From Parcubacteria group bacterium Gr01-1014_33 (GTDB lineage Bacteria > Patescibacteriota > Minisyncoccia > Sungbacterales > HO2-52-23): a DNA stretch of 38,262 nucleotides. The position numbers were made by a program, and so were the translations under genes. Position 1 is the stretch's first letter, and each line of letters begins with the position of its first letter. Below, in pieces: positions 5,854 through 38,121 of this stretch. The notes below the pieces were generated by a model that had not been told where the DNA came from, did no database searches, and saw only the letters and a program-made list of their open reading frames with translations. The stretch lies in the NCBI GenBank assembly GCA_007376125.1, contig VMFQ01000007.1:1-38262 (forward strand). The letters are read 5' to 3'.

Positions 5854-5948
5854 ACCCCGTTAGAGAATGCCCCGCGGCTTGCTGCGGGGTCTGGCGGCTC
5901 AATACGAACGCGGGGTTCAATGCCCCGCGCGAGTTCTCTAACGGGGTT
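5854..5948. repeat. Inverted repeat immediately upstream of ATP-grasp gene
   Basis: ACCCCGTTAGAGAA/TTCTCTAACGGGGT enclosing CCCCGCGG..TGCGGGG and CGCGGGG..CCCCGCG hairpins. Confidence 0.8.
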
Positions 5949-5952
5949 TACT

Positions 5953-7335
5953 ATGGCAAATGAAATAAAAAACGGGAATGGGGCTTCCGGAAGTAGCCAC
6001 AATGGGCAGAACGGCCAAAATGGAAATAACGGGGCAATACAAAACGGCGAAAAACCACGATTAAAGTTTCTTTTTATTTCGTGGGAGTCGCTTTCCGGGG
6101 ATGTGGCGTGGCGGCTTACACAGGAAGGCCATGAAGTGAAATATTGGAGCAAGGACTCGGATGATGCGGATGTCTATATTGGTTTTGTGGAGAAAGTGGA
6201 GCGATGGGAAGACCATAAGGATTGGGCTGATGTTATCGTGTTTGACGACACCGGGTTCGGGAAGATTGCCGATGCTTTGCGCCGATCAGGAAAATTAGTC
6301 GTTGGCGGGAACGAATATACCGATCGCCTGGAAGAAGACCGTGAATTTGGGCAAGCGGAAATGAAACGAGTGGGGATGACAGTACTGCCGCACTGGGATT
6401 TTAGCGATTTTGAGGAAGCAATCCGCTTTATCAAGGAAAATCCGGGCCGGTATGTCTTCAAGCCCTCGGGGAGCGTGCTCACCGATCAGAAAGGCATCCT
6501 TTTTATCGGTCAGGAAGACTCGGGCGCGGATCTTTTAGAGGTGCTTGAGCACAACAAAAACACATGGGCTAAAAAAATCAAGAGATTTCAACTGCAGAAA
6601 TTTGCGAACGGCGTGGAGGTTGCGGTGGGCGCGTTTTTTAACGGCAAGGATTTTATACGGCCGCTGTGTGTTAACTTTGAACATAAGAAACTTTTTCCCG
6701 GTGAGATCGGCCCCTACACCGGAGAGATGGGAACGCTGGTGTATTGGGGCGAGCCCAACAAAATTTTCAGCATGACGCTTGAGAAACTGAAACCCGCACT
6801 TGCAGAATCGGGTTATATTGGGTACGTGGATATCAACTGCGTGGCGAATAACAACGGAATTTACCCATTGGAGATTACCGCACGTCTCGGCTACCCGATT
6901 ATCTATATACAACTGGAAGGAATTTTGACGACTGCGGGAGAATGGTTGTCGAAACTGGCGCGCGGAGAATCGTTTGAATTACGCGTTAAGAAGGGATTCC
7001 AAGTCGGGGTGGTAGTGGCGGTGCCGCCGTTTCCGTATCATGACAGACGCGAGGCCGACATCTACCACGATTTGTCAATCGTGTTTCGCAAACCAAATTT
7101 GGAGGGGGTGCATTTGGGAAAAGTGAAGATTGTGGAGGGTGAGTGGCATCCTGCGGGCGAGTCCGGATATGCGCTTGTGGTTACCGGTTCGGGCACCACA
7201 GTCGCGGAAGCGCGAAAAATGGCGTATAATAGGATTGATAATATTATTTTACAAAACAAGTTCTATCGCACCGATATCGGGATTCGCTGGAACACGGATA
7301 GCGATAAACTTCAATCGTGGGGATACCTTTACTAG
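5953..7335 (+). CDS. ATP-grasp (phosphoribosylamine-glycine ligase-like) protein with Asn/Gly-rich N-terminal linker
   Basis: PGRYVFKPSGSVLTDQKGI, GVEVAVGAFFNGKDF, GPYTGEMGTLVYW, LEITARLGYPIIYIQ. Confidence 0.8.
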   Translation: MANEIKNGNGASGSSHNGQNGQNGNNGAIQNGEKPRLKFLFISWESLSGDVAWRLTQEGHEVKYWSKDSDDADVYIGFVEKVERWEDHKDWADVIVFDDTGFGKIADALRRSGKLVVGGNEYTDRLEEDREFGQAEMKRVGMTVLPHWDFSDFEEAIRFIKENPGRYVFKPSGSVLTDQKGILFIGQEDSGADLLEVLEHNKNTWAKKIKRFQLQKFANGVEVAVGAFFNGKDFIRPLCVNFEHKKLFPGEIGPYTGEMGTLVYWGEPNKIFSMTLEKLKPALAESGYIGYVDINCVANNNGIYPLEITARLGYPIIYIQLEGILTTAGEWLSKLARGESFELRVKKGFQVGVVVAVPPFPYHDRREADIYHDLSIVFRKPNLEGVHLGKVKIVEGEWHPAGESGYALVVTGSGTTVAEARKMAYNRIDNIILQNKFYRTDIGIRWNTDSDKLQSWGYLY

Positions 7336-7444
7336 CGGGTAGCTTGTAGGAAGTGGGTGGTAGGAATAAGGGAATAACATTTAAATCTTTTTTTACTACA
7401 ACCTACAACCTACAACCTACAACCTATTTCCTAATGCCTAATTC

Positions 7445-7861
7445 ATGCGCGTTACCATTCGGCAAAAAGATATAGAAATAACCCCGGCGCTTCACGAATA
7501 CATTAAACAAAAAATAGTCCGGCCGGTGGAAAAATTCCTGAAGCGCGAAGAACGCGAGGGAACGCCGCTTTTGGATATTGAAGTGGCGCGTACCACGCGC
7601 CACCATAAAAAAGGCGAGGTATATCGCGTATCCGTGTCTCTTACGCTCGGCAAAAAACTTATCCGGGCGGAGGTGGAAAACGAGGATGTGCATGCGGCGT
7701 GCGATGTGATTGAAGATGAGTTGAAACGCAAAATCACCTCATATAAGACGCGCGCGTTTTCCATGTTTAAGCGGATGGCGCGTCGCGTAAAAAAAGAACT
7801 TCGTTTTGATCGCGCCGCGCGGCTTTTCCGCAAGGGTCGCGATTGGCATGAAGGGAATTAG
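7445..7861 (+). CDS. hpf: Ribosome hibernation promotion factor / sigma-54 modulation family
   Basis: MRVTIRQKDIEITPALHEYIKQKIVRPVEKF...VSLTLGKKLIRAEVENEDVHAACDVIEDELKRKI. Confidence 0.88.
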   Translation: MRVTIRQKDIEITPALHEYIKQKIVRPVEKFLKREEREGTPLLDIEVARTTRHHKKGEVYRVSVSLTLGKKLIRAEVENEDVHAACDVIEDELKRKITSYKTRAFSMFKRMARRVKKELRFDRAARLFRKGRDWHEGN

Positions 7862-23932: not shown

Positions 23933-23972
23933 TACTAAAATTTATCCCACGATCGTGGGATAAATTTTAGTA
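23933..23972. repeat. 40-bp perfect palindrome with ACGATCGT core
   Basis: TACTAAAATTTATCCCACGATCGTGGGATAAATTTTAGTA. Confidence 0.92.
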
Positions 23973-24092
23973 GAGGTTATATGATAATGGCAGACGAAGT
24001 CTCGTAGTAACCAAAGGTTCTATCTACTACTGGGGCGAAGAGTGCTATCAAGCGGAAATTATCTGATGTCAAAATTGCAAAACTGAATATGT

Positions 24093-29720: not shown

Positions 29721-30200
29721 ATGCGAGAATTTCATCCAAAACCGGGACAAATTGATTTTACCCACATTAAACGGGTGCCGGTGGTAAATTGTATTCTCCG
29801 CTATCAAGCGAAATTTCTGATTGTTCAGAGAAGCGTGGAAATAAAATTTTATCCGGAGTACTGGAACGGCATTTCGGGTTTTTTGGATGATGGCAGGAGC
29901 ATTGAAGAAAAATTGCGCGCGGAATTAAACGAGGAACTTGGGCTTCGCGAACAGGATATTATCACGGTTCATCAGGCAGAGTCCTTTGAATATGATGATC
30001 CGCGCTACAACAAAACATGGATCATACATCCGGTTCTTGTGGACGTCAGAACCGATGCAATTCGTCTTGATTGGGAAGCACGGGATTCGCGATGGGTAAC
30101 GCTTGAAGAGGTAAAGGAATACAATACGCTCCCCGGGTTTGAAAAAGTACTGCAGGCGCTTTTCCCGGCCGGCATGGTGGAAGAGGCGGGCGGCATGTAA
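29721..30200 (+). CDS. Nudix hydrolase
   Basis: GFLDDGRSIEEKLRAELNEELGL. Confidence 0.9.
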   Translation: MREFHPKPGQIDFTHIKRVPVVNCILRYQAKFLIVQRSVEIKFYPEYWNGISGFLDDGRSIEEKLRAELNEELGLREQDIITVHQAESFEYDDPRYNKTWIIHPVLVDVRTDAIRLDWEARDSRWVTLEEVKEYNTLPGFEKVLQALFPAGMVEEAGGM

Positions 30201-30269: not shown

Positions 30270-30481
30270 TTCCGTCATTGCTTGCCCCGTTAGATACCTT
30301 TGTATCTATCGGGGCAAGCAAAAATGCATTCCTAATGCGCTTTGGCGAGCTCCCGCCGTGCGGACGCTCTAGGAAGCAATCTTAATCTTGGAGAATAGGA
30401 TTGCTGCGTCCTCCTGGCTTGTCGGAGAAACGATTGCAGAAAAGATTGACAATCTTTTCTGCGTTTCTCCGTAATGACAGG
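30270..30481. repeat. Composite inverted-repeat element (GTCATTGC...TAATGACA ends), copy R1
   Basis: GTCATTGCTTGCCCCGTTAGATAC/GTATCTATCGGGGCAAGC and GGAGAAACG..GCAGAAAAGATTG/CAATCTTTTCTGCGTTTCTCC. Confidence 0.65.
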
Positions 30482-30664: not shown

Positions 30665-31015
30665 ATGGCAAAGAAGTTATACATTGGTGGGCTTTCCTAC
30701 AGCACCACCGAAGACGAATTACGGGATGCATTTTCCCAGGTAGGCGCGGTTGAGTCTGCGTCTATCGTGATTGACAGAATGACCGGCAGGTCGCGCGGAT
30801 TCGGGTTTGTGGAAATGTCCTCGGATGACGAGGCGCAAGCCGCGATTGAGATGTGGAACGGCAAAGAACTCGGAGGACGGACGCTTACGGTAAACGAAGC
30901 GCGTCCGATGGAGGCGCGCGCGCCCCGACGCGAAGGCGGCGGAGGCGGGTTTAACCGAGATCGCGGAGGAGCGCGGAGCGGCGGATTTGGCGGTCAGCGA
31001 AGAAACAGCTGGTAA
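30665..31015 (+). CDS. Glycine-rich RRM RNA-binding protein
   Basis: KLYIGGLSYSTTEDELRDAFSQVG; GRSRGFGFVEM; C-terminal RGG-like tail. Confidence 0.96.
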   Translation: MAKKLYIGGLSYSTTEDELRDAFSQVGAVESASIVIDRMTGRSRGFGFVEMSSDDEAQAAIEMWNGKELGGRTLTVNEARPMEARAPRREGGGGGFNRDRGGARSGGFGGQRRNSW

Positions 31016-36635: not shown

Positions 36636-37604
36636 ATGACCAAAGAGAAATTTATCCAAACCATAACCAAATGGTATTCCTATAATAAAGAATCCTTTCA
36701 TTTTCCTTGGCGCAATACCCGCGATCCGTACCAGATTTTTGTTTCCGAAATAATGCTCCAGCAAACGCAGATTGTACGGGTGATTCCAAAATACGAGGAG
36801 TGGCTCAAGGAATTTCCCACGCTTGAATCGCTTGCCAAAGCGCCGTTTCCAAAAATTCTCAAAGTATGGCAGGGGATGGGATATAACCGCCGGGCGCGGT
36901 ATCTAAAGGACACCGCAGAAATTGTTGTCCGAAAGTATAACGGACAAATTCCTCGCGATCCGCAAACGCTTGAAAGATTTCCGGGTATCGGACATTATAC
37001 GGCGCGCGCGATTACATGTTTTGCGTATGGGAGATGCGAGCCGTTTTTGGAAACAAATATCCGGCGCGGGCTTATCCATTTTTTCGGAAACTCGCCTCAT
37101 TTGTCTGTCATTGCTCACCCCGTTAGAATTCGAAATTCTAACGGGGTGAGCAAAGCGAAACAATCTCGACACGTCGGGATTGCCGCATCCCGACAAGTCG
37201 GGACTCGCAATGACATGCGGCAAGAGAAGATTTCTGACGGAATACTCCTCGCGATTCTTTCTCGTCTTGAGCCGAAAACAAAAAAACGCGAGTGGTACTA
37301 TGCGTTAATGGACTATGGACGCGAAGTGCTGGGGAAAATGTCCGATAACCCCAATCGTCGCGCAAAACACTATCGGACACAATCAAAGTTTCTGGGCTCA
37401 CGCCGCTATGTCCGCGCAAAGATTGTTTTGTATCTTGTGTCAAAGCGAAATGGGGTAAATAGAAAGGAGTTGCTTCATCTCCTCAAGAAGGATTTACACA
37501 CGAAAGATTTTCTTACTCCTCATGTATTTGATTGGGTTCTTAATGATCTTAGCCGAGACAAGTTAATTACTCGCAAAGCAAACAAGTGGATAATTCTTTC
37601 GTGA
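36636..37604 (+). CDS. mutY: A/G-specific adenine glycosylase, no evident 4Fe-4S cysteines, containing an in-frame palindromic insertion
   Basis: FPWRNTRDPYQIFVSEIMLQQTQIVRVIPKYEEWL; LKVWQGMGYNRRARYL; FPGIGHYTARAI; ETNIRR. Confidence 0.93.
   Translation: MTKEKFIQTITKWYSYNKESFHFPWRNTRDPYQIFVSEIMLQQTQIVRVIPKYEEWLKEFPTLESLAKAPFPKILKVWQGMGYNRRARYLKDTAEIVVRKYNGQIPRDPQTLERFPGIGHYTARAITCFAYGRCEPFLETNIRRGLIHFFGNSPHLSVIAHPVRIRNSNGVSKAKQSRHVGIAASRQVGTRNDMRQEKISDGILLAILSRLEPKTKKREWYYALMDYGREVLGKMSDNPNRRAKHYRTQSKFLGSRRYVRAKIVLYLVSKRNGVNRKELLHLLKKDLHTKDFLTPHVFDWVLNDLSRDKLITRKANKWIILS
37106..37215. repeat. Palindromic element R2 inside mutY
   Basis: TGTCATTGC...GCAATGACA ends, GCTCACCCCGTTAGAATT/AATTCTAACGGGGTGAGC hairpin. 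Confidence 0.85.
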
Positions 37605-37614
37605 GTCGTGTTAT

Positions 37615-37775
37615 AGACCTACTGCACAATAATTTTCGTGACGAAATTTCAGAATTTTGAGACAAAATCGCTGAATAAATTTTGCGGCTTATCTGGAGGA
37701 TACGCCAAAAAATTTTGAGGCGATTTTGGCCGAAATTCTGAAGTTGCAGTAGAAGGATTATTGTGCAGTAGGTCT
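37615..37775. mobile_element. Fold-back element C (family 1), 161 bp, TSD TAT, opposite orientation to B
   Basis: AGACCTACTGCACAATAAT...ATTATTGTGCAGTAGGTCT; TAT at 37612-37614 and 37776-37778. Confidence 0.9.
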
Positions 37776-37970
37776 TATGTATATTGTGTATCGTTCTTCT
37801 ACTGGGCATGCCAACTGCTTGGGAGTTTCTCCATCCAATGGAGTAACTACTCGTACTGACTTCTCACACGACAAGATGTTCATACAAACAGGTGGCATAT
37901 GCATGCTTTTCTCATGTATAGATTGAATTGCAGTAGAGAGCCATATATATCTTCCGAAATCTTTCCCATG
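37776..37970 (-). pseudogene. Truncated coding remnant on minus strand
   Basis: Minus-strand reading IFHGKDFGRYIWLSTAIQSIHEKSMHMPPVCMNILSCEKSVRVVTPLDGETPKQLACPVEERYTIYI, then enters element C and stops. Confidence 0.4.
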
Positions 37971-37982
37971 GAATATACCCTA

Positions 37983-38024
37983 CCACTAAAATTCATCCCA
38001 CGATCGTGGGATGAATTTTAGTGG
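37983..38024. repeat. 42-bp perfect palindrome with ACGATCGT core
   Basis: CCACTAAAATTCATCCCACGATCGTGGGATGAATTTTAGTGG. Confidence 0.93.
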
Positions 38025-38121
38025 ATGCCCATGGAACTTCGGCATTGTACCATTGCTCACACTGCGAAAGCACCATTTCCTTCAAGGAAAGAACAAAGGG
38101 AAAGTTGTATCACTGGGTGTG

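Follow-up and report, generated by a model that had tools for sequence, protein, structure and literature searches.

REPs of the CGTC class have been reported from five phyla, Patescibacteria not among them, and the superfamily includes RPE-4 (CGTC-4) and RPE-6 (CGTC-1) of R. conorii (PMC3733652). Their tag is often TGTC or CCTC, the first two stem positions are A-T, the units occur mainly as head-to-head dimers and the loops are of 4–5 nt, some REP families having other loops; they are said to have no dedicated transposase (PMC3733652). Intragenic REPs have been noted in several other genomes, with many DNA repair genes among the targets (PMC3733652). In-frame palindromic insertions are unusually frequent in Rickettsia, where they produce translational fusions (reviewed in PMC10969869), and PMC3733652 states that RPE-1-decorated proteins are expressed in vivo. 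As outlined in PMC10969869 and PMC3733652, the RPE-1 of Ogata (2000/2002) is an in-frame mobile palindrome of conserved genes that adds tens of residues. REPINs and other RAYT-mobilised REPs, which carry a GTAG tag, consist of paired inverted units and are likely non-autonomous (PMC3116915, PMC8266576). We describe here an element within the mutY gene of a Parcubacteria group bacterium, which a first-pass annotation had likened to the Rickettsia palindromic elements. Very probably, this is a mobile palindromic repeat that entered mutY at a permissive loop; it is a head-to-head CGTC-type REP dimer, one unit of which holds a nested hairpin of a second family. Positions refer to the window, the whole stretch of 38,262 nt that was analysed, unless another contig is named.

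Anatomy and class of the element

The element occupies positions 37106–37215 on the plus strand, exactly where the first-pass annotation had placed it, and the ORF at 36636–37604 stays open through it. This palindromic core of 110 bp is bounded by TGTCATTGC...GCAATGACA and resolves into two units arranged head to head. The 5' unit (GTCATTGC ... ACAATC; 37107–37165, plus strand) is 59 nt long and holds a nested hairpin; the 3' unit (37178–37214) lies on the minus strand, where it reads GTCATTGCGAGTCCCGACTTGTCGGGATGCGGCAATC; the end of the 3' half matches C8:776–814 at 97%. The nested hairpin, TCACCCCGTTAGAATT CGA AATTCTAACGGGGTGA (37115–37149, plus strand), is 35 nt long with the ends CCCCGTTAGA...TCTAACGGGG, and the order within the core is TGTCATTGC-TCACCCCGTTAGAATT-CGA-AATTCTAACGGGGTGA-GCAAAGCGAAACAATCTCGACACGTCGGGATTGCCGCATCCCGACAAGTCGGGACTCGCAATGACA. 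The unit also has a short form of 26 nt, to which the nested hairpin adds 33 bp (11 codons), and thus both layers of the element preserve the frame. Two of the six frames across the element are open, one per strand, and mutY uses the sense one. The RNA fold of the 110 bp has a minimum free energy of -63.1 kcal/mol, compared to -26.8 ± 2.9 for shuffled sequences (z = -12.6). The terminal 11-mer GTCATTGCGAG has 48 matches in the genome (~1.05 Mb, 86 contigs), 24 on each strand, and the reversed control has 0. The fold and the counts together indicate that the palindrome is not due to chance, which bears out its earlier description as a repeat-type element.

Paired copies of 69–205 bp number 31 in the 156 kb of contig sequence of this genome that was examined. 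Each consists of two head-to-head units, GTCATTGCGAG-hairpin-GCAATC ... GATTGC-hairpin-CTCGCAATGAC, with a median unit length of 37 nt and with the hairpin usually within the loop. No in-frame host gene was recognisable for 29 of the 31 copies, most of which are intergenic. The window contains a second element of the same family, which also has a nested CCCCGTTAGA hairpin and across which no frame is open (30274–30478). The annotation had reported it at 30270–30481 as a related intergenic element, and it does lie between the ORFs 29721–30200 and 30665–31015. The CCCCGTTAGA...TCTAACGGGG ends recur on stand-alone palindromes, such as the one at 5855–5946, and on other dimers (window position 30274 and contigs C24, C42, C8 and C78), and for this reason the nested hairpin is assigned to a second palindrome family. 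Upstream of YebC-, NeuC- and pilin-like genes, some intergenic copies are crossed by ORFs. These were rejected as insertions, since the likely start codon follows the element. An Rfam scan of six element loci returned sub-threshold chance matches only, mostly to microRNA models. Target-site duplications were sought by eye in the flanks of the copies of the genome and none was recognised. Many intergenic copies lie centrally in a larger palindrome, GTAACCCCTCAC...GTGAGGGGTTAC (for example, at C8:712–814 and C12:10455–10559), which could be a composite element or a preferred target. The flanks of the mutY copy, CCTCATTTGTCT and ATGCGGCAAGAG, may be a weak remnant of this larger palindrome.

The features that have been published for CGTC REPs recur here for the most part. 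TGTC is found at both ends of the mutY copy and CGTC in many sister copies (such as ...TTCCGTCATTGCGAG); the tag is followed by AT, and most units have ATTGC...GCAAT stems. The units of the 31 paired copies are in opposite orientation. The copies are dispersed and mostly intergenic, with some genic ones in frame, as in the repeats of PMC3733652. The differences are in the Patescibacteria host, in the nesting of a second palindrome family and in the loops, which in most units are long hairpins rather than the short loops of 4–5 nt and which we treat as a variant. On these descriptive features (tag, stem and dimer), the element can largely be placed among the CGTC-type REP dimers. The parallel with the Rickettsia palindromic elements is apt, and closer than the first-pass annotation could have known, as RPE-4 and RPE-6 belong to the superfamily (PMC3733652) whose diagnostic features the element largely displays; as in Rickettsia, a palindromic repeat lies in frame in a conserved gene and is absent from the homologues. 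RPE-1 itself is described as a different and longer family.

The mutY gene and its inserted loop

The ORF at 36636–37604 (plus strand) starts with ATG, reads through the element and encodes 322 aa. Its identification as mutY is upheld by the Pfam HhH-GPD match (4.5e-18), by the conserved positions of the family and by the agreement of both sequence and fold with clusterless MutYX (PDB 8uuc), the closest solved relative (TM 0.89 on the target). The protein is accordingly a clusterless, MutYX-like adenine DNA glycosylase, and the ORF is the only good MutY match in the genome. The structure of 8uuc is without the 42-residue insert discussed below. At residue E139 (37050–37060), where E. coli MutY has its catalytic Asp, there is apparently a Glu in the motif LETN, as in nearly all of the clusterless family.

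We aligned the protein with 99 homologue sequences from Patescibacteria, spirochaetes, Nitrospirota, Geobacter-like bacteria, archaea and others; as three contigs entered the set twice, these represent 96 distinct loci. The stretch F150..I199 has 50 residues here, compared to 8 in 86 of the 99 homologues and 9–12 in eleven. The insert is absent from all 99, and homologues with the same segment encoded by unrelated DNA, which the first-pass annotation had named as the finding that would speak against it, were not encountered among them. With the empty site deduced from relatives at about 40–50% identity, the net extra coding sequence amounts to 126 bp or 42 codons (S153–M194; approximately 37092–37217, plus strand, with ends uncertain by a few codons), which is 16 bp beyond the 110-bp core. 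The peptide that had been attributed to the element, SVIAHPVRIRNSNGVSKAKQSRHVGIAASRQVGTRND, corresponds to residues 157–193. Sizeable inserts at the same loop occur in two homologues only, L107 (39 residues) and L144 (29 residues). These were considered as copies of the same repeat and rejected, as their sequences differ from that of the mutY repeat. The presence of these unrelated inserts at one loop points to a permissive site.

The AlphaFold prediction of MutY (82-row alignment) has a mean pLDDT of 90.6, with values of 95–98 along the enzyme and of about 45–56 in the middle of the insert, where residues 171–190 are below 50. The insert has almost no predicted secondary structure and is located between the helices 140–150 and 201–211. 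Structure prediction had been proposed as a check for a surface loop, and in the model the insert forms a disordered loop while the rest of the fold is intact. The insertion may have been tolerated because of this location, in a loop between two helices.

A different reading of the same gene is that the insertion inactivated or crippled MutY, leaving an early pseudogene that is yet to acquire stops. The insert sits in a loop of otherwise nearly invariant length, R19, which is invariant across the other aligned homologues, is E in this protein, and the atpG gene that carries a copy in the same genome is also frameshifted, so damaged genes do exist in this assembly or lineage. Against this reading, 64 of the 68 positions with at least 90% conservation in the family are kept (61–68 in the other homologues). 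Past the insert, 19 of the 20 such positions are kept and 129 codons remain open. The fold is preserved in the AlphaFold prediction. In relatives, like inserts are open in MurC, LeuRS and MiaB, and it is improbable that every one of these genes is a pseudogene. We regard a pseudogene as unlikely. MutY is probably made with a disordered loop of 42 residues and is functional.

In-frame copies in other genes and genomes

A second in-frame dimer is found in the atpG gene of the same genome (C57:7261–7350). AtpG relatives of up to 80% identity are without the dimer and have about 29 fewer residues at this place, as counted on the alignment. This atpG (C57, minus strand, 7003–7668) is also frameshifted after codon 222, and it is for this reason weaker evidence of function. 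A variable loop is lost at the frameshift and the C-terminal part is in another frame; this could reflect genuine damage, variation among strains or a misassembly.

In related genomes, we found 94 element clusters in the 80 stretches examined. In-frame copies were seen in the genes for MurC, MiaB, a HypF-family protein, an AIR-synthase/HypE-like protein, a peptidase U32 and a DUF6580 protein (genome G046), for a DegT aminotransferase, a glycosyltransferase, MiaA and NadE (G019) and for LeuRS (G041), in a survey that sought open copies alone and gives no measure of gene-breaking copies. In alignments with PDB entries, the homologue shows almost no break at the insert in LeuRS (236 to 240) and in MiaB (308 to 312), and short gaps of a few residues span it in MurC and MiaA. 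The 11-mer is present in 79 of 192 genomes of the phylum, which makes the family a common one in Patescibacteria, with ten or more matches in about 22 (counted by eye). The second palindrome family also enters genes. In the AtpG of genome G020 (L178:1825–1956), the loop in which the present genome has its CGTC dimer carries a second-family insert bounded by ACCCCGTTAGAAGTT...AACTTCTAACGGGGT, the same termini as those of the hairpin nested in mutY. This palindrome of the second family, with the ends ACCCCGTTAGA...TCTAACGGGGT, is in frame in the G020 AtpG. The HypF-family gene of G046 contains yet another palindrome in frame, TGTCATCCTGAATTTATTTCAGGATC...CGGAATGACA, the third such kind (L242:741–827), and possibly a further repeat-like peptide, LALRLGSGQAQ, also in frame (L242:615–671).

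These copies bear on whether the mutY insert could be an assembly artefact or a chimaera in a metagenome bin. The genome is in 86 contigs, palindromes are difficult to assemble and the atpG of the bin is frameshifted. The insert nonetheless leaves the frame of mutY unbroken, with the gene intact to either side of it, and several other genomes have in-frame copies of a like kind, such that an artefact is extremely improbable.

They bear also on the function of the peptide. Recruitment of the insert by MutY, as a protein contact or a DNA-binding tail rich in Arg and Lys, would agree with its basic character, with the unrelated inserts of L107 and L144 at the same loop and with the many DNA repair genes that harbour intragenic REPs (PMC3733652). 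This last observation fits mutY as a target. Yet the peptide is simply the encoded product of the repeat, its frame VIA...RND recurring in the copies of AtpG, NadE, LeuRS and MurC, and it is predicted to be disordered. We give recruitment a very low probability. More probably, the element has no role in MutY and persists by being nearly harmless. Most copies are intergenic, although coding sequence makes up the bulk of a bacterial genome, and so genic insertions must, it would seem, usually be removed, those that we see being the tolerated ones.

The stability of the hairpin, extreme at -63 kcal/mol, raises a further alternative, in which it is not translated at all. Ribosome bypassing, removal from the RNA or an end of transcription would then leave a protein without the peptide or a truncated one. 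Skipping needs no stop-free copy, and yet mutY uses the sole open sense frame. The other intragenic copies are open too, a point weaker than it seems since the search took open copies alone. Mobile bypassing elements of yeast mitochondria would be the counterpart of a hairpin that is not decoded. The Rickettsia precedents, namely the in-frame fusions (PMC10969869) and the in vivo expression that PMC3733652 mentions for RPE-1-decorated proteins, argue for translation. A failure of translation, in any of these forms, is very unlikely in our judgement; slightly more doubtful still is its specific version, that bypass or RNA excision leaves the mature MutY, and the AtpG, MurC and LeuRS of relatives, free of the peptide. 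We favor translation through the hairpin, by which the cell would produce MutY with its disordered loop of 42 residues.

Proposed mobilisation and occurrence in Patescibacteria

The kind of element is known, but its lineage (Patescibacteria), its nesting and the breadth of its host genes appear unreported in searchable papers. A literature search, of incomplete coverage, found no paper that joins Patescibacteria with the term repetitive extragenic palindromic, and a search for the arm sequence gave titles on unrelated subjects, none about repeats. The growth of proteins through mobile palindromes that insert in frame, a process known chiefly from Rickettsia along with some other genomes, would thus extend to Patescibacteria, and in them to small genomes and to core genes (LeuRS, MurC, MiaB and ATP synthase gamma). 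The in-frame copies are in effect natural insertion mutants, with which the tolerance of essential proteins to 25–50 extra residues could be probed, and such repeats explain odd insertions in metagenome-derived proteins.

An HUH transposase of the Y1/RAYT type, acting in trans, probably mobilises the DNA in the form of single-stranded hairpins. Two intact Y1 transposase genes occur in the genome; their open frames, of 233 and 243 aa, match those of RAYTs in length. Among 55 genomes, a Y1 transposase gene is present in all 8 of those with 8 or more matches to the 11-mer, compared to 26 of the 47 others (hypergeometric p about 0.015, calculated by hand and with a threshold picked after seeing the data). 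The paired inverted units, the likely non-autonomy and the Y1 transposases in the genome are points of likeness to the REPINs and the RAYT-mobilised REPs (PMC3116915, PMC8266576). The ends here are TGTC/CGTC in place of the GTAG tag, and no copy flanks the transposase genes: GTCATTGC/GCAATGAC are absent from the 5-kb stretches around them, with no copy within about 2 kb of either. This, and the lack of a dedicated transposase that is described for CGTC REPs (PMC3733652), speaks against such a route.

The window holds other palindromes. A long family with the ends TAGACCTACTGC...GCAGTAGGTCTA is found at 1058–1218 and at 37614–37778, the latter just downstream of mutY, and near-identical palindromes of 38–41 bp, ACTAAAATTYATCCCACGATCGTGGGATRAATTTTAGT, are located at 23934–23974 and 37985–38025.
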